Source: Thioalkalivibrio sp. HK1
GTDB taxonomy: Bacteria > Pseudomonadota > Gammaproteobacteria > HK1
Length of the DNA stretch: 64,000 nt
Assembly: GCA_000583135.1 (NCBI GenBank)
Contig: JFBG01000012.1
Span: 1 to 64,000 of the forward strand
Reading direction: 5' to 3'
The position numbers were made by a program, and so were the translations under genes. Below, piece by piece: positions 7,599 to 59,598 of the stretch (position 1 is its first letter; each line of letters starts with the position of its first letter). Below the pieces are notes generated by a model. That model ran no database searches. It was not told the origin of the DNA and saw only the letters and a list, made by a program, of their open reading frames with translations.

Positions 7599-9254
7599 AT
7601 GTCCCGCCCAAAGGTATTTTCAGCGAAGAAGATCATAACGATGGATCCGAATCGACCGCAGGCGACCCATGTCGCGGTAAGAGACGGATGCATTTTGGCG
7701 GTGGGCGACGAGCGATGCGCCGATGCCTGGGGCCATGCCGGCGAAGATCCCGTCCATGATTCCTCTTTGGAGGAATTCGTGCTGATGCCCGGGCTCGTCG
7801 AGGGTCATGCCCATGCGATCGCCGGCGGGATATGGGATTATCCCTACGCTGGCTATCACGATCGCATCGATCCTGCGGGAAAACCGTGGCGGGGGAAGCG
7901 GGATCTGGCCTCGGTCATCGCCGACCTGCAAGCGATCGAGAGAACGCTGCCTGCGGATCGGCCCTTGGTCGGTTGGGGTTTCGATCCGATCTTCTTGCGC
8001 GATGAACGGCTCGGCCGCCGGCATCTGGATCGGATCGGCGGCGAACGGCCGGTTGCGGTGATGTTTTCCAACTTCCACTTGATGTGCGTGAACTCCAAAG
8101 CCTTGGAGATGGCCGGCTACGATCGCGAGACCGACGCCGAGGGGGTGGTCAAGGACGCCAACGGCGAGCCGACCGGCGAGCTGCAGGAAATGGCCGCGAT
8201 GTTCCCCGTCATGCGGCGGTTAGGGATCGATTTTCGCGGTCTTTCCTTGACCGAGCCTGCGATGCGCACCTACGGGGAGGTCTGCAAACGCGCCGGGGTC
8301 ACCACCGCCACCGATCTCTTCTCGACCATGACCGAGGCGGATGCCGACCGCCTGCTCGATATCACCGCGGACGAGCGCTTCCCCGCTCGCATCGTCCCCG
8401 CGCTGGGCGCGATGGGGGCATCCCCCGAAGAGATCGCCGAGCGGGCGAGAGCCTTGCGCGAGCGTTCGAGCGACAAACTGCGCTTGGGCGCGGTCAAGTT
8501 GATGACCGACGGTTCGATTCAAGGCTGGACCGCCCGCGTCAAATGGCCGCATTATGTCGGCGGCCAACCCAACGGTATCTGGAACACCCCGCCGCAGTCG
8601 ATCTTCGATCTGGCGTTGCAGATGCAGCGATCGGGTTTGCAGATGCACATCCATGTCAACGGCGACGAGGCATCGGAGGTCGCGATCGATGCCCTCGAAG
8701 CCGCGGCCCGCCAATATCCTTGGCCGGATGCGCGTCATGTACTGCAACATTGTCAGATGATGGGGAGGGATCAGTTCGTGCGCTGCGCCGCTTTGGGCGT
8801 CCACGTCAATCTCTTTTCCAACCATCTGTGGTATTTCGGGGATCAGCATGCGGCATTGACCATCGGCGAGGATCGCGCGCGGCGTATGAATGCGGCGCGC
8901 TCCGCCCTCGATGCCGGAGTCGAGATCGCCCTTCATTCGGATGCACCGATCACCCCGATGGGGCCGCTCTTCACCGCTTGGTGCGCGGTCAATCGTCAGA
9001 CCATGAGCGGGCGCATATTGGGGCGGGCGCAGCGCATCTCGGTGGACGAGGCTCTGCATGCCATTACCCTGGGCGCCGCCCGCACCCTCAAACTCGATCG
9101 CGAAATCGGCAGCATCGAAACCGGCAAGCGGGCGGATTTCGCGATTCTCGCCACCGACCCCACGGCCTGCGATGCGAGCGCGTTGAAGGATATTTCCGTT
9201 CTCGGCACCGTCTTGGGCGGCAAGGTCTACCCGGCAAAGGAACCCTTGGCATGA
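7599..9254 (+). CDS. YtcJ-like metal-dependent amidohydrolase (Amidohydro_3)
   Basis: Cytoplasmic hydrolase of 551 residues, of the amidohydrolase superfamily that cleaves amides or related C-N bonds with a metal centre. It has the HxH metal ligand pair in EGHAHA (residues 70-72), the YtcJ-type MTDGSIQGWTA block, HVNGDEASEVAI and HCQM in the barrel, and the end signature LHSDAPITP with GSIETGKRADFAIL. The ribosome-binding site AAGGAAG precedes ATG 7599. Its stop overlaps the CobW-type gene (ATGA). It is divergent from a peptide-type importer, which may bring in its substrate (inference). The substrate is unknown. Confidence 0.85.
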   Translation: MSRPKVFSAKKIITMDPNRPQATHVAVRDGCILAVGDERCADAWGHAGEDPVHDSSLEEFVLMPGLVEGHAHAIAGGIWDYPYAGYHDRIDPAGKPWRGKRDLASVIADLQAIERTLPADRPLVGWGFDPIFLRDERLGRRHLDRIGGERPVAVMFSNFHLMCVNSKALEMAGYDRETDAEGVVKDANGEPTGELQEMAAMFPVMRRLGIDFRGLSLTEPAMRTYGEVCKRAGVTTATDLFSTMTEADADRLLDITADERFPARIVPALGAMGASPEEIAERARALRERSSDKLRLGAVKLMTDGSIQGWTARVKWPHYVGGQPNGIWNTPPQSIFDLALQMQRSGLQMHIHVNGDEASEVAIDALEAAARQYPWPDARHVLQHCQMMGRDQFVRCAALGVHVNLFSNHLWYFGDQHAALTIGEDRARRMNAARSALDAGVEIALHSDAPITPMGPLFTAWCAVNRQTMSGRILGRAQRISVDEALHAITLGAARTLKLDREIGSIETGKRADFAILATDPTACDASALKDISVLGTVLGGKVYPAKEPLA

Positions 9255-10246
9255 GCCCCCGCCTGCCCTTGACCGTGATCGGCGGCTACTTGGGGGCCGG
9301 CAAGACCACCTTGATCAATCGCATCTTGCACGCGCCGCGCGGACAGCGAATCATGGTGCTGGTCAACGATTTCGGGGCCATCAATATCGACGCTTCGCTC
9401 TTGATGTGCGCCGACGAGGACACCATCGCCCTGACCAACGGCTGCGTGTGCTGCACGATGGGAGCCGATCTTTTCCTCGCCATCGGCGACGTTCTCGACC
9501 GCCGGCAGCGGCCGGATCATCTGATCGTGGAAGCAAGCGGGATTGCGGACCCGGCGAAGATCGCCGCCGTGGCCGCCTGCGAGCCCGAACTCGTCCATGC
9601 CGGGATCGTCGCCGTCTTCGATGGTGCCAACGGTCTTTCGCTGCTGGACGATCCCTTGATCGCCGACCAAGTCCGATCCCAAGTCGAAGTTGCGGATCTG
9701 ATCATGATCTCGAAAGAGCCTTCGGCCAAAGTCATCGACCGCATCCGTCTTTTGGCACCTGCAGGGGAGATCGTCGAAAGCGAGAGGATCGGGGCGCTGA
9801 TTCTGGATCGGCTCGCTCTCGATCCATCCACCCTCGATCGACCGGATCCCGATCGCCCCGCCCCCGAAAGCGCCGGACCGATACCTGAATCCCCGGCATC
9901 GAAAGAGGCATCCGAGCGCTCTTCATCGGCGCATCCCGACTATGTCAGCTGGCATGCATCCGGGGATATCGCCTTCGGACGCACCGTTCTCGAAGATCGA
10001 CTGAAAAGGCGCCCTTCGGGGCTTTATCGGATCAAGGGCTTCGTGCGCCAATTGCACGCCACTGGGGAGTCGAGGGCCTTCGAGGTGCAAGTCACCGGGC
10101 GCCGGATATCGATCAAGAGCGCTCCTTCCAATGCGCAAAGCGGGATCGTCGCCATCGGCATCGAAGGGCGCATCACGGCAAAGGAAATCGAGCGCTGGTG
10201 GAATGATGGTTCTTCGGACAATGCCGCCCTCGCCGCATCGAAATAG
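9251..10246 (+). CDS. CobW/G3E-family GTPase, probable metallochaperone
   Basis: A 331-residue G3E GTPase. Walker A is GGYLGAGKTT (residues 11-20), the metal-binding CxCC motif is GCVCC (64-68), and the switch-like motif is EASGIADP (94-101). The usual guanine-specificity NKxD is replaced by ISKEP (153-157), so nucleotide preference may be altered. A proline/serine/acid-rich linker (about 190-235) joins the GTPase to a CobW C-terminal domain ending in EIERWWND. Family members load zinc or cobalt into client enzymes. ATG 9251 overlaps the amidohydrolase stop, so the two are translationally coupled; the client is probably that enzyme (inference). Confidence 0.85.
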   Translation: MSPRLPLTVIGGYLGAGKTTLINRILHAPRGQRIMVLVNDFGAINIDASLLMCADEDTIALTNGCVCCTMGADLFLAIGDVLDRRQRPDHLIVEASGIADPAKIAAVAACEPELVHAGIVAVFDGANGLSLLDDPLIADQVRSQVEVADLIMISKEPSAKVIDRIRLLAPAGEIVESERIGALILDRLALDPSTLDRPDPDRPAPESAGPIPESPASKEASERSSSAHPDYVSWHASGDIAFGRTVLEDRLKRRPSGLYRIKGFVRQLHATGESRAFEVQVTGRRISIKSAPSNAQSGIVAIGIEGRITAKEIERWWNDGSSDNAALAASK

Positions 10247-10282
10247 CACCCCCCTTTTGCAATCAATCTCCCTTTGAACCAT

Positions 10283-10310
10283 CGATGATGATCATTCGAT
10301 GATGATCATT
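10283..10310. repeat. 14-base direct repeat, two copies
   Basis: CGATGATGATCATT occurs twice in tandem, immediately downstream of the CobW-type gene and touching the 3' end of the small secreted-protein gene. Each copy contains the palindrome ATGATCAT. Confidence 0.7.
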
Positions 10311-10719
10311 CAAGGAAAGCCTGCTGCGTATTTCTCAGCCCTGCGGGAAGGGTCTGGTCTTTGTCGACCAAGTAGAAGCAGGAGTAGGGATCGGTGTCGC
10401 AAAGCGGCTGCGGCGGATCGATGGATAGCCCGGCAAACATCGTCGTGCGCTCACCGCCCGATGCCTGACGGCAATTGCCTTGGTGGTCGCATTTCAAGCC
10501 ACCGCTTCCGTGCGGGGAGGCAAGTTGGTTATCGTGTTCGATCCAACCCCCTTCCGCCAACTGACTATCGTGCTCGATCCAGCCTCCGATATCCGCAGGC
10601 TGCGGGGTCAAGGCATCGTCGGCGCCGCTTTGGGCCTGCAGCGGGGACGTGAATACCACCAAGATGCCCAACGCCATCGCCGCCACGAGTCCGCCCAATC
10701 GATGATGTCTCTTTTTCAT
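10306..10719 (-). CDS. Small secreted protein with a duplicated WIEHD motif
   Basis: A 137-residue protein with a clear signal peptide (basic start MKKRHHR, hydrophobic LVAAMALGILVVF, cleavage near LQAQS). The mature part carries a tandem duplication, GGWIEHDSQLAE then GGWIEHDNQLAS, followed by a region with four cysteines (KCDHQGNC, LCDTDPYSC). GAGGAG lies upstream of ATG 10719. I do not recognise the family. It lies about 500 bases beyond the 3' end of the large repeat protein on the same strand, and both are secreted, so they may be functionally linked, but this is only proximity. Confidence 0.6.
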   Translation of the reverse strand: MKKRHHRLGGLVAAMALGILVVFTSPLQAQSGADDALTPQPADIGGWIEHDSQLAEGGWIEHDNQLASPHGSGGLKCDHQGNCRQASGGERTTMFAGLSIDPPQPLCDTDPYSCFYLVDKDQTLPAGLRNTQQAFLE

Positions 10720-11245
10720 ATCATTTCTCCTCGCCGACCAAGGAAGGAACGATCGATACTACAAATGCCATAAATTTCAAAATTCGTCAACCCCTTTTTT
10801 TCGCCGACCGAGACGACTTCGCCTTCCGAGCGATGCGCTCTTTCAAGGGATTCGGCTTGTCGATGCGGCGGGTAGCCGATGTCCGATCAGCGAAGCGAAA
10901 GCATCGCAGCGAAGATTCTTTGCGCCAAAGAACTTTGGCAAGAACACAACCGCTTCAAGCGCAAGCCCGCTTTATGCAAGCGATCGATGATCGATTCGAT
11001 GCGACCGAGATAATCGGAAAAATCGGGAGGCTTTCCGATATAAAAAGGGCGAAAGCGCCCATCGTTCGAAGTATCGATTGAAATAAGCAAAGAGCGCCCG
11101 ATATCGATGTGCACAAGAATATTCGCAAGACTTTTCCGTATGCACCCGCAAAGGGCGGGCCGCTTTTATCTACCGAAGCGAGCGGGCCGGTGGCGCCAAC
11201 ACCACCGGCCCTGCTTCGAACGAAGTTGGGGCTTCTAAAAACCGA
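10720..11245. other. Intergenic between two secreted-protein genes
   Basis: About 525 bases with a short T-run near 10793 and the hairpin listed at 11175-11218. It presumably holds the promoter of the small secreted gene. No open frame here has a plausible start or composition. Confidence 0.4.
11175..11218 (-). terminator. Strong GC hairpin after the large repeat-protein gene
   Basis: GGGCCGGTGG (11184-11193) pairs with CCACCGGCCC (11202-11211), and the flanks CGAAGC/GCTTCG extend the stem. It lies 28 bases past the stop of the minus-strand gene, the right place for a transcription end, but lacks a T-run. Confidence 0.45.
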
Positions 11246-14200
11246 TCAGTTGCAGCCGGAGTTGTTGACGAGCACACCGCTACCGGTGCGGGTCAACACC
11301 TGAACACTGAAGGGTTGCTCGCTCGTGGCATCGCATGAAAGACCCAAGCCCCTCCAGACATAGGAGATCAGATCGGAAAGTTCGCTGCTTTGCAAATGCC
11401 GCACCGAGTAGCGATCGATCGTCCCCAGATCGACTTGCCTAAGAACACCCATATCGTCATAGCAATAAAGCTTGGTATCGGTGCAGTGCTCACCGCTCGG
11501 GGCATTGCATCGGATGCGGACATTCGTGATCTCGTTGGTCAACGGCGAGGAGATGGACTCGATCGACGCCACGTGGAGACCCTCGAACGGCCGGCTCACG
11601 ATAACCGGCGAGTTATTGACGAGCACCCCGTCCCCCGAGCGCGTCCACACTTGCGCTTCGAGGCTGCCGTCGCCTCGTATTTCGCAGTTCAAACGCCCTT
11701 TCCCGGCCCATGACCCGCTCGTAATCTCCTCGATTTCCGCCGCCGTGAGGGTCAAGGTGCCGTTGGCGGGGATCGGATCCAATACACCCTCGAAAACCTC
11801 ACCGTCTTGCGAGGTACAAAACAGGTAGGCATCGCAGTCGGTATCCTGCTTGCAGCGCACGCGCAAGGTGGCGTGGTCCAACGAGTTCGAAGGCGGAATG
11901 GCCGGGGCTTGCGCTTGCTGCGCCCATTCAGCGCCGGTGGTGTCCTTGACCACGATGAGCATGGAGGCGCTTTCCTCTTGGCCCCCAGCGGTGGATGTGG
12001 CGTTGACCCGAACATCGACATTTAGCGCATCGTCATCGGCAGCGGCGCTGACATTGAATACGTGGGGAGTTTGCCAATCATCCCGAGGGATCGATATCGT
12101 GTTCGTATTCAAGGTGATGATTTCCGGGCTGTCGGTGGAAAGAGCGACCTGCACATCCGTTTCCGGCTGGTAGCCCAAAAGGATATGGAACTGTTCGGTC
12201 TCGCCTTCGTTGACCGATGGGCGGGAGCCATCGACGGCCTCCAACGAGAGAAAGGGGCCTTCGGGCTCGGGTTCGGTTCTATCCAAGACCCTGATCTCCC
12301 TCCTGACGATCTCGGCGTAGACATCCGGTCCCAACTGGGCCTTGAACTCGTAGTTGTTATGTATCAGATCATCATCGACCAAGGCCCTGACCGTCATGGT
12401 CTGCTTTTGGGAGAAGTTCTCCGGGGTGAATGTCAGGAAATAGGGGTTCACCGTGATTTTCGATGAACTGGGAGAGAAGGTGACGATCGACGATGACCCG
12501 GGGGAAACGCTCAACGAAACGCGATAATCGAAAGAATCACCCTCGTTGATGTCAACCGTCTGATCCGGACCCGGCTCGATGAGTATTTCGAGATAATCGG
12601 GGTCCGCCTCGTCATCGGTGACTTCCACCAAAATCCTGGCGTTCGCTGCGGGATAGCCATCGGAAGCGGACAGGATCATCTCCGCTGCGTATGATTGATC
12701 GTCGTCATCTTGCGCCGCGCTGACCGTGACGTCCTGATACACCCCCCAATTTCCGCTCGTGAATGTGAGCGACGACGGCGAAATCGTGAGCCCTTGCGGA
12801 CCGACGATGGACGAGAACGAAAAGGATATGACGACATCCGCACTCGGTTCGGATTCGAGCCTGACGCTGAATCTCCCGGACCTTCCCTCTCGGATCCTCA
12901 AACTCGGAATGTTTATATCGATCCCTTCGGCAGCCCCGTCGTCATCCTCCATCAGAACCGTCATGGTTTCGTTCGGAGCGACGATGCCTCCGCTTGCCGT
13001 CAATGTGATCAAAGCCTCATCATCGGTCGCATCGTCATCGTGCCCAATGGCGACGGTGACGGTCTGGGCTTGGTCGTGGTTATCGGAGGTGAAGGTCAGC
13101 GATGCCGGGGTCAGCGTGATATCGGCATCGGGGCTCGAAAGGACTACCGAGACGTCCGCGTTCGGGGCGACATTCAAAGCGACCGTCAATGTGCCCGACT
13201 CGCCCTCCTTGACAAGGATCTCCGTGGCCGGAACCAAGACCATGAGGCCCGAGGGCGGCTTGTCGTTATCATCGACACTGATCGATCTATTCACATTATC
13301 CGCATCGATACCCCCGCTGGCCGACAAGGTGATGGTGTCTTGATCGTCGACGTCATCGTCATCTTCCGCAGCGCTGACGGTGACGGTTTGGGCTTGGTTA
13401 TAGTTATCGACGGTGAAGGTCAACGATGCCGAGGATAGCGTGATATCCGAATTCGACTTCGTGATCGCCACCGTGACATCGGCATTCGGAGCGTCGCTGA
13501 GAACGACCGTCATATCGACCGAACCGCCCTCGTCGATGGTCAACGCATGGAAGGGACCGGTGACGATCTTGCCCAAAGGAGCCGCCGGCGCATCGTCATC
13601 ATCGACGATGACCAGTTTGCTCGCATCATCGGCATCGATACCCCCGCCGGCCGACAGGGTGATCGTGTCTCGATCGTCGGCGGCATCGTCGTCATTCGCG
13701 GCGCTGACGGAGACGGTCTGGGCTTGGTCGTAGTTATCGGAGGTGAAGGTCAGCGATGTCGGGGATAGGGTGATATCCGCATTCGTCTTCGAAAGCGTCA
13801 CCTGAGTATCGTCATCGGGGGAGACGCTCAAAGAGACCGACAGCACCGCCGAGCCGCCCTCTTCGACCGATAGCGCTCCGGCCGGGGTGATGAGGATCTC
13901 GCCGGGCGGCGGCTCGTCATCATCGACGCTGACCGATTTGGTCACATTGGCGGCCACGATGCCTCCGCCGGCCGAGAGGGTGATGGTGTCTTGATCGTCG
14001 ACGGCATCGCCATCTTGGGCTGCGCTGACGGCGACGATCTGGGCTTGGTCGTAGTTGCCGGGGGTGAAGGTCAGCGATGTCGGGGATAGGGTGATATCCG
14101 AATTCGTCTTCGAAAGCGCCACTGTCACGTTCGCACTCGGGGCGACGCTCAAAGCGATCCGCAGATTGGCCGAAGTGCCCTCGTCGATGAGCAGCGTTCC

Positions 14201-14947
14201 GAGCGGGCTCACGATGACGATATTGCCCGCAGGCTTGCTATCCCCCACAGCGACGGATTTGGTGGCATTCGCCGCCGAGATGCCTCCGGTGGCCGAAAGG
14301 GTGATCGTATCTTGATCGTCGACGGCATCGCCATCTTGGGCGGCACTGACGGTAACGGTCTGGGCTTGGTTGTAGTTCCCCAAGGTGAAGGTCAACGATG
14401 TCGGGGAAAGGGTGATATCCGAATTCGTCTTCGAAAGCGTCACCACAGCGCTCCCGATCGGCGCTGCACTAAGAGCGACGGTGAACGTACCCGAAGAGCC
14501 CTCGTCGATGTCGAGAGTCCCGGCGGGGGATATAGCGATCGTGGCCGTCGGTTTCGTAGGATGGGTTTGGGTGATCGTATTGCCTCCCGTGCCGCAATCC
14601 GATAGGGTGCCGCAACCCGGATAGCCGGATGCGGTTTGGGTTGCGCTATCTGCATACTCAACGCATATCTGCGCCGGGGCGGCGATATTGAAAGTGCCGC
14701 TGCTTGCAATCTCGTCCTCCCCGTCTTGACTGTCGAATGCTTGGCAAAGACCGTTACTTTCATCTCGCCCCGAAATCCTGATGGTCGCGCTACATTCATT
14801 CGTCAATCGATAGGCGGTTTCGGTTTGACCTTGCTGCGAAAGGTCGATGCATTCGTGGGCGGGAGTGGTGGTTTGGGCGATCGCCGATCCGGACATGATC
14901 GATATCGCGAGGATGGCCATGAAGGTGGCGATTGCCTTGGATTTCAT
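11246..14947 (-). CDS. Large secreted Calx-beta-like repeat protein
   Basis: A 1233-residue exported protein. Signal peptide MKSKAIATFMAILAISIM to residue about 25. Residues about 26-120 form a cysteine-containing N-terminal part. Residues about 122-1003 hold eight repeats of roughly 105 residues, each with an IDEG/VNEG start, DITLSPTSLTFT-like centre, NYDQAQTVTVSAA and an Asp-rich turn (DDDAVDDQDTITL). This matches Calx-beta/cadherin-like calcium-binding beta-sandwiches in surface proteins. Residues 1021-1233 hold two copies of another unit, each with conserved cysteines and ending in VQVLTRTGSGVLVNNS or a close variant. No LPXTG, autotransporter barrel or membrane anchor is visible. GGGGAG precedes ATG 14947. 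Role in adhesion or surface structure is inferred. Confidence 0.75.
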   Translation of the reverse strand: MKSKAIATFMAILAISIMSGSAIAQTTTPAHECIDLSQQGQTETAYRLTNECSATIRISGRDESNGLCQAFDSQDGEDEIASSGTFNIAAPAQICVEYADSATQTASGYPGCGTLSDCGTGGNTITQTHPTKPTATIAISPAGTLDIDEGSSGTFTVALSAAPIGSAVVTLSKTNSDITLSPTSLTFTLGNYNQAQTVTVSAAQDGDAVDDQDTITLSATGGISAANATKSVAVGDSKPAGNIVIVSPLGTLLIDEGTSANLRIALSVAPSANVTVALSKTNSDITLSPTSLTFTPGNYDQAQIVAVSAAQDGDAVDDQDTITLSAGGGIVAANVTKSVSVDDDEPPPGEILITPAGALSVEEGGSAVLSVSLSVSPDDDTQVTLSKTNADITLSPTSLTFTSDNYDQAQTVSVSAANDDDAADDRDTITLSAGGGIDADDASKLVIVDDDDAPAAPLGKIVTGPFHALTIDEGGSVDMTVVLSDAPNADVTVAITKSNSDITLSSASLTFTVDNYNQAQTVTVSAAEDDDDVDDQDTITLSASGGIDADNVNRSISVDDNDKPPSGLMVLVPATEILVKEGESGTLTVALNVAPNADVSVVLSSPDADITLTPASLTFTSDNHDQAQTVTVAIGHDDDATDDEALITLTASGGIVAPNETMTVLMEDDDGAAEGIDINIPSLRIREGRSGRFSVRLESEPSADVVISFSFSSIVGPQGLTISPSSLTFTSGNWGVYQDVTVSAAQDDDDQSYAAEMILSASDGYPAANARILVEVTDDEADPDYLEILIEPGPDQTVDINEGDSFDYRVSLSVSPGSSSIVTFSPSSSKITVNPYFLTFTPENFSQKQTMTVRALVDDDLIHNNYEFKAQLGPDVYAEIVRREIRVLDRTEPEPEGPFLSLEAVDGSRPSVNEGETEQFHILLGYQPETDVQVALSTDSPEIITLNTNTISIPRDDWQTPHVFNVSAAADDDALNVDVRVNATSTAGGQEESASMLIVVKDTTGAEWAQQAQAPAIPPSNSLDHATLRVRCKQDTDCDAYLFCTSQDGEVFEGVLDPIPANGTLTLTAAEIEEITSGSWAGKGRLNCEIRGDGSLEAQVWTRSGDGVLVNNSPVIVSRPFEGLHVASIESISSPLTNEITNVRIRCNAPSGEHCTDTKLYCYDDMGVLRQVDLGTIDRYSVRHLQSSELSDLISYVWRGLGLSCDATSEQPFSVQVLTRTGSGVLVNNSGCN
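11935..14575 (-). repeat. Eight in-frame Calx-beta-type repeats, about 310-330 bases each
   Basis: The coding repeats of the large secreted protein. The first five (upstream end, 13.0-14.6 kb) are most alike at DNA level, for instance repeated runs encoding SLTFT and DDQDTITLSA, suggesting recent duplication. Units six to eight are diverged. Confidence 0.75.
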
Positions 14948-15697: not shown

Positions 15698-15788
15698 GGA
15701 GAGGTGGCCGAGTGGCTGAAGGCGCTCCCCTGCTAAGGGAGTATGGGCTAATCCCCCATCGAGGGTTCGAATCCCTCCCTCTCCGCCA
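15698..15788 (+). tRNA. tRNA-Ser (anticodon GCT)
   Basis: A 91-base class II tRNA with encoded CCA. Acceptor arms GGAGAGG and CCTCTCC pair, with discriminator G. The anticodon stem CTCCC/GGGAG (15725-15729, 15737-15741) encloses CTGCTAA, anticodon GCT at 15732-15734, reading AGC/AGU serine codons. A long variable arm and the T-loop GTTCGAATC are present. It flanks the NurA-HerA-methyltransferase-DprA block, so it may be that block's insertion point. Confidence 0.97.
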
Positions 15789-16334: not shown

Positions 16335-17738
16335 TCAGTTGCCGAACAAAGAAGCCTGCCGCGCATCGATCCACTCGTAGCGCACGGGATTCGCAAGACA
16401 CCGAACCCTCCTTTCCGCCTGCGCCCGCCTCAGCCAAGCATTGACCTGCGCCTTGTTCACATCGAGCAACTCGGCGATCTCATCCGGGGTCTTGGCCGAC
16501 TCGGCGCAAGTCCTTGAAATCATCCGAAGAAAGAGGTCATAGAACGCAAGGCTTTCATCCGATGGCAAGCGACCCATCGACAAGGCCTTGCGCTCGATCC
16601 CGGAATGCGTCGCCATCGACTCGGACTCGCTCCCCGACTCCACCGACGCACTTGCCCGAACCTCCGGGGTGAGCGAAGATGCCTCGGATTCTTCCGATGC
16701 AACCTCGAGCCCGGCACTTCGCTCGCCGCGCTCCCCTTCCGGCGACGATTGGATTTCCGGGCTCGGTTTCATCGGGCTAAAAAGATCCGCTTTCTTCGCT
16801 ATGAAACCCTCCGAATCACCCCATAAATCCTTGACCTGCAAGCGATCGACATCCTCGCAAACCCACCTCGCCCCCCGCTTTACGAGGGCATCGTTGCCCG
16901 CGAAAGAGTCGTTGGTCGGCTTTATCCAAAGGGGAACCCAGCGCTTTTCGATATTCTCCGAAGCCCCGTTCCATGTTCCACCTTCGATGCCCGAACGAAC
17001 CACCAAGGCCGCATCGCCGAGGCAGTAGATATATTTATTGCGCCCCATGGCATTGCCTGCGCTGAAACCGGCTTCGGGATGGACCGCCGATACAAGAACG
17101 AGCCTCTTTTCCCTCAAGTAAACGCGGTACTTAGAAGCCGAACTCGCCCGCAACAACCCATCGGACAGCACCCCGACGACGGTGCCTTCGTTTTCAAGCG
17201 CAGCGTGCATCGATGCTTGGTCCACCCCTTTCGCCCCGCCGGAAACGATACCGTGCCCTTGCCTTGCAGCCGCAGCCCCGATCCTTCGCGCATAGCCCAA
17301 ATCATCCTCGCCCGCTTTGCGAGAACCGACAACGGCAAGTCCACCGCGATCGAGCAGCGTGCGATCACCGCAACCGTAGAGCACCGCCGGAGAGTCCGCC
17401 CCCAACCGCCGCTTCAACCGAATCGGGTAATCCCCATCCGATCGCGTCATCACCCACAGCCCGGCCCGCAACCACCTCTCGACGGCGATAGCCAGCGCCG
17501 CACCCCGATTCAACAACGCCTCGATGCGATCCAATGTAATCCGCCGATCCGACCACCCCTCGAGGATATCCCGAGGTCGATCCCCCAGCAGCGCCTCGGG
17601 AGTGAGCGATCGCTCTTTGAGCCAAATCGCAAACCGCCCCCACTCGCCCGGCGTCAAGGGCTTCGCCAAGCCACCATCGGCCCTCGAAAAATGCGAGGTC
17701 AACAGCAAAACCGCCTGCGTCTTCGGTGAAACGAACAT
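16335..17738 (-). CDS. DprA-like (SLOG Rossmann) protein with C-terminal winged helix
   Basis: A 467-residue DprA/Smf relative. An N-terminal helical region (about 30-110) precedes the Rossmann core with VGSRKAG (137-143), SGGAKGVD (166-173), GRNKYIY (232-238) and GGTWNGA (253-259), matching the DprA nucleotide/ssDNA-binding core in a variant form. A Ser/Glu-rich linker (about 325-390) leads to a DNA-binding winged helix (395-467) containing TPDEIAELLDVNKAQVNAWLRRA. Canonical DprA loads RecA on ssDNA in transformation. This longer variant lies downstream of a nuclease, translocase and methyltransferase with a 118-base gap on the same strand, so a defence role is more likely. Both roles remain possible. 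Confidence 0.75.
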   Translation of the reverse strand: MFVSPKTQAVLLLTSHFSRADGGLAKPLTPGEWGRFAIWLKERSLTPEALLGDRPRDILEGWSDRRITLDRIEALLNRGAALAIAVERWLRAGLWVMTRSDGDYPIRLKRRLGADSPAVLYGCGDRTLLDRGGLAVVGSRKAGEDDLGYARRIGAAAARQGHGIVSGGAKGVDQASMHAALENEGTVVGVLSDGLLRASSASKYRVYLREKRLVLVSAVHPEAGFSAGNAMGRNKYIYCLGDAALVVRSGIEGGTWNGASENIEKRWVPLWIKPTNDSFAGNDALVKRGARWVCEDVDRLQVKDLWGDSEGFIAKKADLFSPMKPSPEIQSSPEGERGERSAGLEVASEESEASSLTPEVRASASVESGSESESMATHSGIERKALSMGRLPSDESLAFYDLFLRMISRTCAESAKTPDEIAELLDVNKAQVNAWLRRAQAERRVRCLANPVRYEWIDARQASLFGN

Positions 17739-17856
17739 TCAACCCCCAAAACCGGCCGAAGCCAACGCAACGGGATAGACCTTCGCTCCCGGAACGCCGC
17801 AGCAGAGCTGCGAGCACCGTACGACAAGTACTTGCGATCAAAGGAAATTCGTTTGG

Positions 17857-18957
17857 CTATGCTAGATCAGCCCAAATATCATATTCAACGATAGCCTCGC
17901 TATGGCTTCGGAGGAAGGCATCGGCCTGTCTCTTGCCTTCGAGCGAGGTGCCTGCATCTTTTATGGTGGATAGGCGCCAACGACTGTTTCGAAATGAATT
18001 TTTTATGATATCCAAAGGGTCGTCGGGTCTGCTCGATATTCCGCCGAAGCGGACGACCATCTTGGCATCCGGCTTGCAACAATCGGCAACGTTATTCCAA
18101 ATCCTGCGAATATCGCTGACATAGTCTTGGGGATTCGAGTGTAGGATCTGATGCTTATTCTTGTAGTCGACATCGGCCGCACCGCCCAAGAACCAATAAC
18201 GAAGCCACTGATCGGTGATATAGGTACGCATACCGTAATAGGGTGGTGAAGTGATCACCCAAGAAAATTTTGGCTTACCTGATACGGGCTTTAGCGAATC
18301 GATCTCGCGGCTGTCGCGAAGACGGACCTCGCCATCGCTTTTCGGAAGAGAACCGTAGTAGCGTTTCGCTCGGCGTTCCATGATGCCGAGAACATCCACT
18401 TGCAAGGGCTGCAAATCACGATTTTTCCAATACCTGACGGCGTATGCAGGCTTCGGGGCATAGGTTCTGGGGCTCTGATTGGAAAAATAACTTTGGAAGG
18501 TCTTCTGTCTCGGACCGTGCAATGCCCCGAGGATGATTCCCCGCAAAGCGATGCGAGCCGGTGTCGAGCAGTCTTGGAGAAAAGCGGATCTGAAGCGACA
18601 AAGATCGACGAGGACTTCGGCATGATACGCCCATTCCCAAAATGGACCCGACGGGATATCGTAAGGCTTGATGGCCGACAGAATATCTCGAGCCTCGGAC
18701 AATATCTCAGGTATGCCGACCTGGGCCAACTTGGCTTCGGTGATTGCGGCCGCGACCGGACTCGAATCCACCCCCAGCGAGGATAGGCCTTCCAATCGAG
18801 CGGCGAAGTTCGTTGTTCCTCGCCCACAAAAAGGATCGAGAACGGTTTGGTTCCTCTTGGCGTATCTTCGCAAAATCCGTAGCGGAAATGCGAGAGGGAA
18901 CATGGTGAAATACGGGCATATCGCGTTCAATGATGTATTTATCAAGCGCCCAGTCAT
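17857..18957 (-). CDS. DNA methyltransferase (N4-cytosine/N6-adenine type)
   Basis: A 366-residue SAM-dependent amino-group DNA methyltransferase. The SAM-binding motif I is DPFCGRGTT (residues 41-49), followed by an acidic strand end in SLGVDSSP. The catalytic motif IV is SPPY (237-240) in ITSPPYYGMRTY. Motif I precedes motif IV with about 190 residues between, room for a target-recognition region, an alpha-like order; SPPY is more usual in N4-cytosine enzymes. ATG 18957 overlaps the HerA stop (ATGA). No separate type II endonuclease adjoins it; the NurA nuclease of the same operon is the only candidate nuclease. Target sequence unknown. Confidence 0.85.
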   Translation of the reverse strand: MTGRLINTSLNAICPYFTMFPLAFPLRILRRYAKRNQTVLDPFCGRGTTNFAARLEGLSSLGVDSSPVAAAITEAKLAQVGIPEILSEARDILSAIKPYDIPSGPFWEWAYHAEVLVDLCRFRSAFLQDCSTPARIALRGIILGALHGPRQKTFQSYFSNQSPRTYAPKPAYAVRYWKNRDLQPLQVDVLGIMERRAKRYYGSLPKSDGEVRLRDSREIDSLKPVSGKPKFSWVITSPPYYGMRTYITDQWLRYWFLGGAADVDYKNKHQILHSNPQDYVSDIRRIWNNVADCCKPDAKMVVRFGGISSRPDDPLDIIKNSFRNSRWRLSTIKDAGTSLEGKRQADAFLRSHSEAIVEYDIWADLA

Positions 18958-21083
18958 TGTGTATCACGCCTTATCTTCCGGATATAGGTTTTATTGAATG
19001 GATTCTTGAATGATTCCCATATCTTATTTTGCTCACCGAAGATTTCATCCATCGCCTTCTTGACCAGTCGATAAGCCAAGTCATCCCTGTTATCGAGGTG
19101 AGCGGGAAGTCGATCAAGGAAAAATGCTCTTACGGTACCCCATGCGGCACCCTCTTCCGATTCAAGTTTATTCATCAATTCGGTATCCTCTCGAAGTGCT
19201 TCGATCATCCCCGCTTCGATTTCCGCCATGATATCGATCGTTTCCGGTCTTTCTTCTAAAGATTCCGACGGCGCCATCTTGACCGGATCGCCCTTGGATC
19301 TCACGAAATCCAACCGAGCATCGACTTCGAAGATATCATGAAGCACCTTCGCATAGGTCTTGCCTTCGGGCAGATCGTAGCCCGGATCGCGCATCGAAAA
19401 CATCCCTTCGAAGGAAAGCGCGCGGATACTCACCGGATAGGGTTTGCCGCCGACCGAGCTCCAAAAGACACCCTGACCCGGTATCGGTTCGTTGAGTAGC
19501 GAACTTAGGAGATCGTCGCTGAAATGCGCGTTCGCTCGTTTCAGGGATGTCAAATCGGCCGATGAGAGCAAATGAAAAATGAACCAATTATCGCCTTGGC
19601 TTAGTATCTCGACCGGAATGCTGCCGGGTTGTTGGGTGATCAACAGCGCGCCGAGATCGTACTTTCGTCCCTCCTTGACCCATGCAATATAAGGCTCCGC
19701 CGCCGAGGCCCCTTCTTTGAGGACCGACTGGGCTTCCTCGACCACGGCGATGGTGGGAATGGTCTTCGGTTCGGCGGCCGTAAACTCTTGCTGGTTTCGA
19801 TCGAAGATTCGACGAAGGATCAAGCCGGAGAGGATCAACGACTGGCCGCTACGCATCTGGGATACGTCGATCACGCATATCTTGCCCTCGGAAAGAGCAT
19901 GGACGAGCATATCCATGAGCTGACTGCTCTTGTCGTGCAGCATGCGTACGATCACGGTCATATTGCTGCGAGCGGCGATCGCCTCCACTTCCTGTCGTTG
20001 AGGATCGAGTTCCAATATCTTGCATAATTCATCGATCGGAGTGGCGTTCCCGTTGACGTCGATCAGGTTGACCAAAGACTCCCAGCGTTCTTGCGACAGC
20101 CCCCTTAGCTTTCTTACGTTTTGTTGTTCCTGCCGATCGGGATCAAGAGCGATGGCGATGACATCGCTCGGACGCAGGCGTCGAATATCAAGACGAATAC
20201 CCCCGGCGACGAATGATTGATAGAAAGGACTAAGATTGCGGCGCTCGGTGAAGACGACGAGACTGTCTTCGAGAGCGGGCACATCGCATAAACCGGGACG
20301 TCCTTTGTCGTCAGGCCAAAAGTATTCTCCGTCGGGATCGAAGATGACGGTGCCTACCGGAACCCTTCGCCCGCCACGCTTCTCTACATAGGGGGTTGTC
20401 TTGTAGAGCTGGCTGAACAAGAGTTTGTTCAGGTTGGATTTACCGAAGCCCGCCCGGGCAAATACGAAACTGCGGCGTGATACCAGCGATTCGACCGGAA
20501 ATTTGACGAGGATCTCGGGATCTAAGATCTGCATCCATTCTTGGATTTTGAAATCGGATCTGCCGGAAGAATAGATATACTCGCCGAATGCAAGGTGTCC
20601 GATGGGTGCACCTTCGATATTGTGCCCGGCTATCTCGCGATGCACCTCACCTGACGGAAAAGCGACTTGGCTGCCGACATGCGGCAACCGCCGATGTGAG
20701 GCTACGAAGGTAAGTCTCATACCGTTCTTGCGCAATACACCAAGCACGCGAATATTGACACGATATCTGAGATATTGCTCCCTGAGATCCTCCGGAATGG
20801 CACGGTCTTCGCGAACGGCTCGAATATTGAATTCCTCGCCGGAGCCGAAGGAAAGCTTCCCCTCCGATGAAAACGAGGCGATTCGTCCGAGTACGGCTTC
20901 ACCCGACGTCTCGAGTTGTACGAGGAGAAACTGGCCATGCATCGGGATGTTTTGAAATTCGTTTCGATAAGGCAATACGAGATCGGCATGAAATTCCAAG
21001 CCTCCTTGTTGGAAGCCGCGAAATATTCCTACGATCTCTTTTTTCGGAAATAGCTGTATCTCTGCGGACATGGCGGATCTCAT
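18954..21083 (-). CDS. HerA-like hexameric DNA translocase ATPase
   Basis: A 709-residue HerA/FtsK-superfamily ATPase. An N-terminal beta-barrel-like HAS domain (about 10-180) precedes Walker A AGFGKSN (211-217), an early strand VIFDPDGEYFW, Walker B TIAVVEEAQ (443-451) and the sensor region TQQPGSIP (about 483-490). HerA proteins pump DNA and drive the NurA nuclease; in bacteria they also power defence effectors. ATG 21083 overlaps the NurA stop and its own TGA overlaps the methyltransferase start, so the three are translationally coupled. A charged C-terminal tail (about 610-709) is extra and could bind a partner. Confidence 0.85.
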   Translation of the reverse strand: MRSAMSAEIQLFPKKEIVGIFRGFQQGGLEFHADLVLPYRNEFQNIPMHGQFLLVQLETSGEAVLGRIASFSSEGKLSFGSGEEFNIRAVREDRAIPEDLREQYLRYRVNIRVLGVLRKNGMRLTFVASHRRLPHVGSQVAFPSGEVHREIAGHNIEGAPIGHLAFGEYIYSSGRSDFKIQEWMQILDPEILVKFPVESLVSRRSFVFARAGFGKSNLNKLLFSQLYKTTPYVEKRGGRRVPVGTVIFDPDGEYFWPDDKGRPGLCDVPALEDSLVVFTERRNLSPFYQSFVAGGIRLDIRRLRPSDVIAIALDPDRQEQQNVRKLRGLSQERWESLVNLIDVNGNATPIDELCKILELDPQRQEVEAIAARSNMTVIVRMLHDKSSQLMDMLVHALSEGKICVIDVSQMRSGQSLILSGLILRRIFDRNQQEFTAAEPKTIPTIAVVEEAQSVLKEGASAAEPYIAWVKEGRKYDLGALLITQQPGSIPVEILSQGDNWFIFHLLSSADLTSLKRANAHFSDDLLSSLLNEPIPGQGVFWSSVGGKPYPVSIRALSFEGMFSMRDPGYDLPEGKTYAKVLHDIFEVDARLDFVRSKGDPVKMAPSESLEERPETIDIMAEIEAGMIEALREDTELMNKLESEEGAAWGTVRAFFLDRLPAHLDNRDDLAYRLVKKAMDEIFGEQNKIWESFKNPFNKTYIRKIRRDTQ

Positions 21084-22222
21084 CCATAGCGTCGTTGAGC
21101 GGGGTCGGCGTCTTGAAGCTGAAATACATCGAGTACCGATGCTTCGCCTTCGAGGCTTTTACGTACGCCGTCGTAAATAAAGTCTTGCAAGATGTCGAAA
21201 TCAAAACCCACCAGCGCTGCGTTCTCATGCGCCCTTTGGAGGCAGCGTGGATAGTGAGCGACCGGAAATCCGTTGATCGCATCTGCCAGCAACGAGCCCA
21301 ATATTTTTTGTACTTCGGATACTTGCGGTACGAAGATATCGACGGGCCAGATGGGATCGCGGCTGTGCGCCCCAAATTTCACGAGAAACATCTTTCCCCC
21401 GACGAATTTATTGATTTCGCCTCCTTCTTCGGCACGATCGTCTCCTCGCGCAAACTCGGACCAAATATAGGCCCGCTCTTCGACTTCGCGTGGCACTTCC
21501 ACATAGGCCGGATAATCGGTTTGCAATATCTCCTCCAACGCCATCGCGAGGCGATATCGAGAGAGAACCTTGCTGTGCTTCGCCACCCCGACCAAATAAA
21601 TACGACGGCGACTCCTTTGCCGCTGTTCTTCGATTCGATCGTGCATGCCCTGAAGAAGGCGATTAAAGAGATCCCCTGCAAATACCTTGCTGCGAAGCAA
21701 GCCGTCGCAAACGATGAGGGTGTCCGTACCGAAGTCTTTCTTCAAGATTGCAAACAAGATAGCCCACTCGACGAGCTCTCGATAGACCTGAACCCAACTC
21801 GGAGAAACAGGCTTGTCTTTGTCGGTGGGACGAATCATGTGGGAGAGCATCGGCAGCGTTTCGACGCCGAGAAATCGCATCATTTCGCCGAGTGCGGTTT
21901 GCGGCGTTCCATCGCCGGATAGCTGCCGATGATTCAGTTTCGAGATCGGCGTGGTCGGGGAAACGGCCTCGAGACAATATTCGTTGTCACTGCTATCGAC
22001 GACCCTTACGATCTGAATCAAGAAGGGATCGAAGTGTAACTGATTATTTCCACCATCCGTTCCGACGATCGATATTGACGTGGTTGATCGAGGCTGTATC
22101 GGTCTCGTCTTTCCCTGCAAAGGACGTATTTCGTTTCGGAGATTTTCAAGAATTCCTTGATCGGTATCGATGCAGTCGATAATGGCCTCTTTCAGCTGGG
22201 CTTGAGTCGCAGGATCAATCAT
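21080..22222 (-). CDS. NurA-domain nuclease
   Basis: A 380-residue NurA-family nuclease. Acidic catalytic motifs are seen as VGTDGG (residues 53-58) and LIVCDGLLRSK (169-179), followed by the VAKHSK segment (213-218) and a C-terminal HYPRCLQRAHENAAL helix that in the family supports HerA docking. Family members are 5'-3' exonucleases/endonucleases that work inside the HerA hexamer. The ATG at 22222 (MIDPATQAQ) is preferred because GGAG lies about ten bases upstream; an upstream ATG at 22300 would add a cysteine-rich leader of 26 residues. It leads a four-gene block. Composition is more AT-rich than the flanking metabolic genes. Confidence 0.8.
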   Translation of the reverse strand: MIDPATQAQLKEAIIDCIDTDQGILENLRNEIRPLQGKTRPIQPRSTTSISIVGTDGGNNQLHFDPFLIQIVRVVDSSDNEYCLEAVSPTTPISKLNHRQLSGDGTPQTALGEMMRFLGVETLPMLSHMIRPTDKDKPVSPSWVQVYRELVEWAILFAILKKDFGTDTLIVCDGLLRSKVFAGDLFNRLLQGMHDRIEEQRQRSRRRIYLVGVAKHSKVLSRYRLAMALEEILQTDYPAYVEVPREVEERAYIWSEFARGDDRAEEGGEINKFVGGKMFLVKFGAHSRDPIWPVDIFVPQVSEVQKILGSLLADAINGFPVAHYPRCLQRAHENAALVGFDFDILQDFIYDGVRKSLEGEASVLDVFQLQDADPAQRRYG

Positions 22223-22339
22223 GATCAATGTCTCCGATTTGCATGGCTTGGATCTGTCGTACGGCATATTTTCTCGGCAAGAACATACGATGTCGACCAA
22301 GCGTTTTTGTCGTGTATCACCTCGTTGGTTGTTCTCGAT

Positions 22340-57786: not shown

Positions 57787-59598
57787 ATGAAGATCATCCA
57801 TTACCTCGAGATCGAGAATTTCAAGCATTTCGGGGAAAAACAGCGAATCGATCTCGATCACCCTTCCGTCCTCATCGGACCGAATAACTGCGGGAAAACC
57901 ACGGTGATCCAGGCGATCGCCCTTTGGTCCCAAGCGGTCAAGGCTTGGTTCGATGCCAAGGGGAAATCGCCTCCCAAGAAGAGAAATGCCGCTCCGATCA
58001 ATCGATTGAATATCGTTTCGGTACCCGTTACCGACGCCCGTTATTTTTGGCACGACACCATAATACGAACGGGACGAAAGAATATCGAATTCGAGATCGC
58101 CGCCGGGATTGCCCACGAAAACGGTACCACTCCGGTAGGGATGCGCTTCATCCATCGAGGAGGCGATCTGCTCTATTGCAACCCGACGAAAAGCGCATTG
58201 GATCATCCAGGGCTCATCGAGGCCGCGGCCAATATCGATGTCAGGCTGCTCTATCCGATGTCCGGACTTGAAACGGATGAAACAATCCTTCGGCGAGGGC
58301 GTATCGATGTCTTGCTCGGTCAGGGCCAAACCGCTCAGGTTCTGCGCAATTTATGCTTTCTCGTATTCGAGAACGACCCGGAAGATTGGAAGAAGATCAC
58401 AAGCCACATTGAGAAGCTTTTCCAAATAACCCTGCAAGAGCCGATAGCGAATTACCGGGGGAGCATCGATCTTTTCTATACTCAATCAGGTATCAAATAT
58501 CCACCGGATATTGCCTTGGCCGGAAGAGGGCTTCAGCAAATGCTGCTGCTCCTCGCTCATCTTTACTGTCACCCTAAAAGCGTATTGCTCATCGATGAGC
58601 CGGATGCTCATCTCGAGATCCTGCGGCAGAGGCAGATCTATATCCTTTTACGAGAGATCGCCGAAGAAAAGGGCTCCCAAGTGATATTGACCACCCACTC
58701 CGAAAAAGTGATGGAGGATGCGATCGACCATAATCTCACTTTGTTGTTGAACGCCAAGGCGGAGAACATAAGCAACCTCGCCGGCAAAGAAAAAGTGAAA
58801 AACGCTTTGAAGTATTTCGGGGCGGAGCGCTACTACCGTGCCCGAAAGTGTGGCTACATCCTCTATGTCGAAGGAAAGACCGATATCGATAACTTGAGGG
58901 CTTTTGCCAAGAGACTGAATCATCCGATCACCGAGCTCATCGATACCGCCAATATCTATTACACGCAAGGTAGTCATCCGGAATCGACGACCATCGATTC
59001 TGAAATGGAAAGGGTGGAAACCCGCCCCGGAGATAAACCCGGGGGAAATTTCTTCGTCCTCAAAGACTTGATACCCGATCTTCGAGGGCTGGCTATACTG
59101 GATGGCGACAATCGACAGCGAGATGATCATGCAGAGAAAAGGTCGGGTAGATCGGGCCTATCGATTTTAAGGTGGAAACGCTATGAGATCGAGAACTATT
59201 TTATCAGTCCCAAACTATTGAAGGCATTCCTGCGAAAAGTCTTGGATGATCAGAATTTACTTGAATCCAATGACATTAAGAAAGGAGAACGGATTCTCGA
59301 TCGGATGATCCTGAATGAGGTCTTCGACAAAAACGATGACGAGTTTGAAACTTGGAAGGCGATGGACGAAAAATCCTCAGGTTTTTTGTGGGAAGCCCGA
59401 ACCGAGCGTATGAAAATTAGCGATTTCGCCGAGCGTTTTTTTCAAGAGCTATCAAAAATCTCGACTCGGGAGATGCTTACAAGAAAAGGGGAGTTCTACC
59501 GTTTGATCGAATTGATGGAGGATAACGATATCCCGAAAGAGGTGGAGGAGAAATTGGATGCGATCCATGATCTCTTGAAAACCACATCTACGTCTTGA
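57787..59598 (+). CDS. OLD-like AAA ATPase with TOPRIM nuclease domain
   Basis: A 603-residue protein with an ABC/SMC-type ATPase head and a TOPRIM-like domain, as in OLD-family nucleases that protect against phage. Walker A GPNNCGKTT (31-39), signature LAGRGLQQML (244-253), Walker B LLIDEPDAHLE (267-277), H-loop TTHSE (302-306). TOPRIM elements are YVEGKTD (360-366) and LDGDN (438-442), followed by RYEIENYF (465-472). The 3' third is visibly more AT-rich than the neighbours. It stands alone between the response regulator and the livF gene, without a partner helicase, suggesting a mobile defence gene (inference). Confidence 0.85.
   Translation: MKIIHYLEIENFKHFGEKQRIDLDHPSVLIGPNNCGKTTVIQAIALWSQAVKAWFDAKGKSPPKKRNAAPINRLNIVSVPVTDARYFWHDTIIRTGRKNIEFEIAAGIAHENGTTPVGMRFIHRGGDLLYCNPTKSALDHPGLIEAAANIDVRLLYPMSGLETDETILRRGRIDVLLGQGQTAQVLRNLCFLVFENDPEDWKKITSHIEKLFQITLQEPIANYRGSIDLFYTQSGIKYPPDIALAGRGLQQMLLLLAHLYCHPKSVLLIDEPDAHLEILRQRQIYILLREIAEEKGSQVILTTHSEKVMEDAIDHNLTLLLNAKAENISNLAGKEKVKNALKYFGAERYYRARKCGYILYVEGKTDIDNLRAFAKRLNHPITELIDTANIYYTQGSHPESTTIDSEMERVETRPGDKPGGNFFVLKDLIPDLRGLAILDGDNRQRDDHAEKRSGRSGLSILRWKRYEIENYFISPKLLKAFLRKVLDDQNLLESNDIKKGERILDRMILNEVFDKNDDEFETWKAMDEKSSGFLWEARTERMKISDFAERFFQELSKISTREMLTRKGEFYRLIELMEDNDIPKEVEEKLDAIHDLLKTTSTS

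Follow-up and report, generated by a model that had tools for sequence, protein, structure and literature searches.

A NurA-HerA-methyltransferase gene trio as a probable restriction-modification-like defence module beside a putative orphan PsyrA gene in Thioalkalivibrio sp. HK1

Results

Gene layout of the locus

The window, that is, the whole 64,000-nucleotide stretch of DNA that was analyzed, carries the following features on its minus strand:

21080..22222, minus strand: NurA-like nuclease (TdpB-like), 380 amino acids (aa) from the conserved MIDP start
18954..21083, minus strand: HerA-like DNA-pumping ATPase (TdpA-like), 709 aa
17857..18957, minus strand: amino-group DNA methyltransferase (MTase), 366 aa
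17739..17856, minus strand: putative frameshifted 3' remnant of psyrT (RecQ-like toxin gene), filling the gap between the MTase and PsyrA genes
16335..17738, minus strand: predicted PsyrA (RqlI family) antitoxin with a DprA/SLOG domain and a C-terminal HTH, 467 aa

A sequence-only reading of this DNA had listed four minus-strand genes and joined them into one possible defence system. Its gene layout was borne out by the open reading frames and the sequence: ATGA overlaps are seen at 21083-21080 (NurA/HerA) and 18957-18954 (HerA/MTase), and the gap between the MTase and the DprA-like gene is 118 bases. The NurA reading frame opens at a TTG at 22300, upstream of the MIDP start at 22222. Judging from homologues, the true HerA start may be the second ATG (MSAEIQLFP); the NurA/HerA overlap would then become a short gap. 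The four family assignments also held. In Pfam, HerA matches DUF87/HerA with 71.8 bits, the MTase matches N6_N4_Mtase with 58.4 bits, and the DprA-like protein matches DNA_processg_A with 127.6 bits. NurA scores 17.3 bits against Pfam NurA, under the cut-off of 21, and its assignment is upheld by the fold.

NurA, HerA and the MTase form a conserved three-gene module

We scanned a NurA alignment against 84,980 species genomes and obtained 79 loci from many phyla, with up to 85% identity. The core is carried by Proteobacteria, Chloroflexi, Acidobacteria, Verrucomicrobia, Planctomycetes, Firmicutes, Bacteroidetes, Cyanobacteria and one archaeon; cultured carriers of the trio include Methylococcus capsulatus Texas, Cupriavidus cauae and Desulfacinum infernum. 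HerA follows NurA in nearly all loci whose contigs reach that far, and both genes are present in 72 loci, three of which came from whole-genome searches. Sixty loci contain NurA and HerA with at least 1.3 kb on either side; these are not all independent, as L012 and L030 are one contig and a few contigs are near-identical. The MTase family lies within 200 bp of NurA-HerA in 43 of the 60 loci (30 downstream and co-directional, 9 downstream and convergent, 4 upstream) and within 3.1 kb in a further four. The convergent and upstream placements indicate that the linkage is maintained though gene order varies. Some loci without the usual MTase have another methylase beside NurA-HerA: a divergent HsdM pair in L028 and L043, and a D12/Dam-type methylase in L084 and L088. 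In 9 of the 60 loci, whose annotation is partial, no adjacent methylase was identified, and for this reason the MTase may be dispensable for NurA-HerA. Three of the loci without the usual MTase have a DUF3223 protein after HerA (L028, 7073-7819; L043, 12295-13041; L025, 3549-4295), and in a Phycisphaeraceae genome one MTase is flanked by two NurA-HerA copies (L080, 4139-11902).

Among 369 genomes of the class, taken as one fixed sample, three carry NurA and four carry the MTase family; all three NurA carriers also have the MTase (hypergeometric p = 5e-7). Distances correlate with r = 0.96 for NurA and HerA and r = 0.72 for NurA and the MTase (Mantel test, 0 of 999). Thus, NurA, HerA and the MTase are a conserved three-gene module, and its recurrence in dozens of genomes shows that the trio is not a chance arrangement. 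Of the four genes that the sequence-only reading had joined, it is these three that are co-located across genomes; the fourth occurs in no other core locus. None of 16 relatives from the same genus or family carries the trio, and a patchy, horizontally spread distribution is supported. A search of 72,556 plasmids gave no NurA match, so that carriage of the module by the plasmids searched was rejected; HerA gave one weak archaeal match there. Viral contigs were also rejected as a source of relatives, as none of 54 pattern matches was related. The trio of Deferribacter pDF308 was rejected as a close member, since its NurA is unrecognised by the family profile A3 and its HerA is recognised weakly; it appears to be a distant or parallel assembly. 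On the Deferribacter megaplasmid (L007, 7971-14444) the order is MTase-HerA-NurA, and an IS605/TnpB element splits HerA.

TdpA and TdpB are the nearest solved relatives of HerA and NurA

The AlphaFold (AF2) model of NurA has a pLDDT of 88, and that of HerA has a pLDDT of 75. In a Foldseek search with the NurA model the best match was TdpB (8wfd_G, E = 4.5e-12, probability 1.0). TdpB chains were the only matches at E ≤ 0.001, and Argonaute folds came next at 3e-3. The NurA profile against solved structures likewise gave TdpB (E = 3e-4) and no other credible match. For HerA, the top profile match was TdpA (8wet, E = 6.5e-26), with 94 bits for TdpA versus 61 bits for Sulfolobus HerA. With the HerA model, ranks 1-6 in Foldseek were all TdpA chains (best 1.5e-23), and Thermococcus HerA came after these. 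Both profile and predicted fold thus place TdpA and TdpB as the nearest solved relatives, with the archaeal repair HerA-NurA less near. Identity is only 16-18% for NurA and TdpB and 21-23% for HerA and TdpA. HerA is not a repair-HerA equivalog: it scores 49.6 and 43.4 bits against cut-offs of 800 and 970, and all equivalog scores are at most 58, with cut-offs of 800 or higher.

The NurA residues D56, D173, K215, E248, D295 and H332 are conserved among 45 sequences. HerA has an invariant Walker A K215, Walker B E449/E450 and Q484 among 28 sequences. In the MTase, motif I DPFCGRGT (41-48) precedes motif IV SPPY (237-240), and both are conserved in a 29-member alignment. Since catalytic residues and motifs are conserved throughout, all three proteins are expected to be active.

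The motif SPPY is most frequent among N4-cytosine methylases. The target base of the MTase could be either N4-cytosine or adenine. PADLOC classifies the enzyme as a type II MTase. The family is also found without the NurA-HerA pair in Allochromatium, Bradyrhizobium and Rhizobium plasmids, and in some loci NurA is about 80% identical to that of the window, with an MTase that is only 44% identical. The NurA-HerA pair appears to travel as a unit, with the MTase retained but exchanged. Because MTases only 44% identical are swapped beside a NurA-HerA pair that is about 80% identical, one may speculate that the MTase also sets target recognition.

The fourth gene encodes a putative orphan antitoxin

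The sequence-only reading had made the DprA/SLOG protein a fourth working part that handles or senses exposed single-stranded DNA. PADLOC gave this protein a full-length match to PsyrA (E = 1.2e-148), the antitoxin of the PsyrTA system. In the homologue loci inspected, the RecQ-family protein PsyrT directly precedes PsyrA in 8 of 8 cases (3 plasmids, 5 genomes). PsyrT is absent from the window and from the rest of the genome, where the best match is RecQ, aligned over the helicase part with 37% identity.

It turned out that the 118-base gap encodes TVLAALLRRSGS in one frame and, in another, VYPVALASAGFGG followed by a stop, directly next to the PsyrA start. Both peptides match the C-terminus of the intact PsyrT in G267/L104. 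They are the top two matches to the PsyrT C-terminus on both strands of the 64-kb window (scores 50 and 48; next 41), and no shuffled version of the gap scores above 35 for this query. At the DNA level, the remnant is identical to the intact psyrT of G267 at 60 of 82 positions (73%), versus 12 of 34 directly upstream; it covers roughly the last 27 codons of psyrT. The G+C content of psyrA is about 0.60 with a skew of about -0.2, and that of the core is 0.52-0.53 with a skew near zero.

PsyrA is missing from the other NurA-HerA-MTase loci and the gap holds a psyrT remnant; therefore, the fourth gene is most probably an orphan antitoxin left by a psyrT deletion and would not be a component of the core module. 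The proposed handling or sensing of single-stranded DNA by DprA in the trio system thus finds no support. PsyrTA is embedded in a type I restriction-modification (R-M) operon in L101 and in a BREX operon in L103. PsyrTA and the core occupy the same kinds of neighbourhood, which would account for their meeting here; PsyrA and the core presumably came together via the type I R-M and BREX neighbourhoods that they have in common.

Genomic context of the core and of the window

Annotation of the neighbours of the core, based on large reading frames picked by hand and without a matched control, revealed BrxC (L014), HEC-01A (L022), PglXI with BrxHI (L038), TmtA (L024), type I R-M genes (L008, L021, L043, L066) and, in L039, a type III restriction enzyme. 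SspB/C/D and DISARM genes lie near the core in L063. In this locus, a NurA-HerA pair without an MTase (9001-12288) is located between the Ssp phosphorothioation module and the DISARM genes, an arrangement that hints at a use of the pair with other marks. A PP-loop (phosphorothioation) gene was considered as the missing partner in the MTase-less loci and rejected; it was found only in L063, where it belongs to the Ssp system.

Elsewhere in the window, tRNA-Ser(GCT) is located at 15698-15788 on the plus strand, directly downstream of psyrA, and is a plausible candidate for an island insertion site. No integrase was noticed among the large reading frames; the repeats found are short and likely due to chance. 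The gene at 57787-59598 (plus strand) encodes an OLD-like AAA ATPase (AAA_21/AAA_15) that resembles the AriA/NsnB/GajA defence ATPases and is possibly a second defence gene. The minus-strand gene at 11246-14947 encodes a 1233-aa, probably secreted protein with Calx-beta/fibronectin-like repeats.

Discussion

Proposed function of the trio and alternative explanations

The trio shares two features with R-M systems: an MTase with catalytic motifs and a linked nuclease pair, adjacent in most of the loci, whose acidic residues are conserved. We propose that it is an R-M-like defence module, in which HerA-NurA attack unmarked DNA, methylation is the self mark, and PsyrA is no component; we put the probability of this reading at about 0.68. 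HerA as a hexameric DNA pump, with the NurA nuclease at the pump mouth, would make an ATP-driven restriction machine. The MTase would mark the cell's own DNA, and incoming DNA lacking the methyl mark would be pumped by HerA and cut by NurA. Such a scheme would resemble TdpABC, with methylation replacing phosphorothioation. Complex formation, DNA restriction, the block of the nuclease by methylation, and the methylated base with its motif are the parts of this scheme that we infer.

The alternative that survives best, itself unlikely, is abortive infection, in which lost or inhibited host methylation, for instance through a phage, releases NurA-HerA onto the host chromosome. SIR2-HerA and DUF4297-HerA reportedly abort infection; the sequence here offers no feature that separates such a response from direct restriction. 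A DNA-transfer role is rated slightly lower. Its model, Thermus ICETh1, has the same kinds of gene and is the main rival to our reading. In Thermus ICETh1, for which transjugation has been proposed, NurA (TTC1878), TdtA (TTC1879) and a pfam01555 methylase (TTC1880) lie in one operon; mutation of tdtA or nurA abolishes donation, and the effect of the methylase is minor (PMC5365140, PMC7767461). Against donation by the window module, neither an integrase nor a conjugation gene was noticed beside it, the core is flanked by defence systems elsewhere, and the closest solved relatives are TdpAB. Moreover, the Thermus operon includes a restriction enzyme, so that the operon may originally have served defence.

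The two remaining alternatives are both highly improbable. NurA and HerA were named for archaeal end resection and are reported as repair proteins in Deinococcus, which would suit housekeeping end processing of double-strand breaks with the MTase as a chance neighbour; however, the genes are rare and patchy, being present in 3 of the 369 class genomes and missing from all 16 close relatives, the MTase is adjacent in 43 of 60 loci, and HerA falls far below the equivalog cut-offs. Distribution and adjacency thus contradict the idea that the MTase and the NurA-HerA pair are independent housekeeping genes. A four-part machine with PsyrA as handler or sensor of single-stranded DNA would fit the shared strand, the close spacing and the intact PsyrA reading frame, and a functional link is conceivable from PsyrTA inside R-M and BREX operons, but PsyrA occurs in none of the other core loci, the gap is a psyrT remnant and base composition differs.

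Beyond the single locus, we consider the chances about even that the trio represents an unnamed ATP-driven R-M type, in which a TdpAB-like HerA-NurA pair with exchangeable amino-methyltransferases is a general engine coupled to phosphorothioate or methyl marks. If this is true, a single HerA-NurA restriction engine works with two self marks that differ in their chemistry, and how such pumps read DNA modification becomes directly testable. The locus also shows how a defence-island neighbour, here an orphan antitoxin, can pass for a system component, and the psyrT remnant beside an intact psyrA would be a toxin-antitoxin pair caught after the loss of its toxin gene.

Comparison with known systems

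In the literature searched we found no named NurA-HerA-methyltransferase defence system; the trio may have been mentioned earlier (Iyer 2004; Makarova 2011; An et al. 2025, Nat Chem Biol 21:1160, cited in PMC13251355). Among published gene sets, the trio comes nearest in its kinds of gene to the Thermus thermophilus ICETh1 operon (TthHB27I/Tth111II-NurA-TdtA-methylase), where all three kinds lie together; that operon differs in belonging to an integrative element, in containing a type IIG enzyme and in being studied for DNA donation. DndFGH and the HerA-FtsK capture systems (PMC10853773) and the BRC systems (PMC12839542) also use a HerA/FtsK pump in modification-linked defence, but NurA is unmentioned there and the architecture is different. 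SIR2-HerA (Nezha) and DUF4297-HerA, lower-ranked Foldseek matches of the window HerA, share a HerA-type ATPase with an effector; however, the effector is SIR2 or DUF4297 and there is no methyltransferase. PsyrTA (RqlHI) corresponds to the fourth gene, PsyrA, with the toxin gene of the window deleted to a frameshifted C-terminal remnant.

The closest comparison is with TdpABC (structures 8wet, 8wfd and 8y1k). It is reportedly a phosphorothioate defence system, in which TdpA is HerA-like, TdpB is NurA-like, and TdpC carries out the modification. Phosphorothioation is understood to control restriction by TdpAB. Both gene sets combine a HerA-type pump and a NurA-type nuclease, in the window a putative restriction pair, with a DNA-modification gene. 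In the window, however, this gene encodes a SAM-dependent amino-methyltransferase, whereas TdpC is a phosphorothioation enzyme; the window HerA is also about 120 residues longer than TdpA, and identities are 16-23%. Since the third gene is a DNA methyltransferase and PADLOC matched no phosphorothioation family among the four window proteins, the trio was rejected as a member of TdpABC. From sequence profiles and predicted folds, it is best read as an unnamed module whose putative restriction pair is kin to TdpAB and whose self mark would be methylation.
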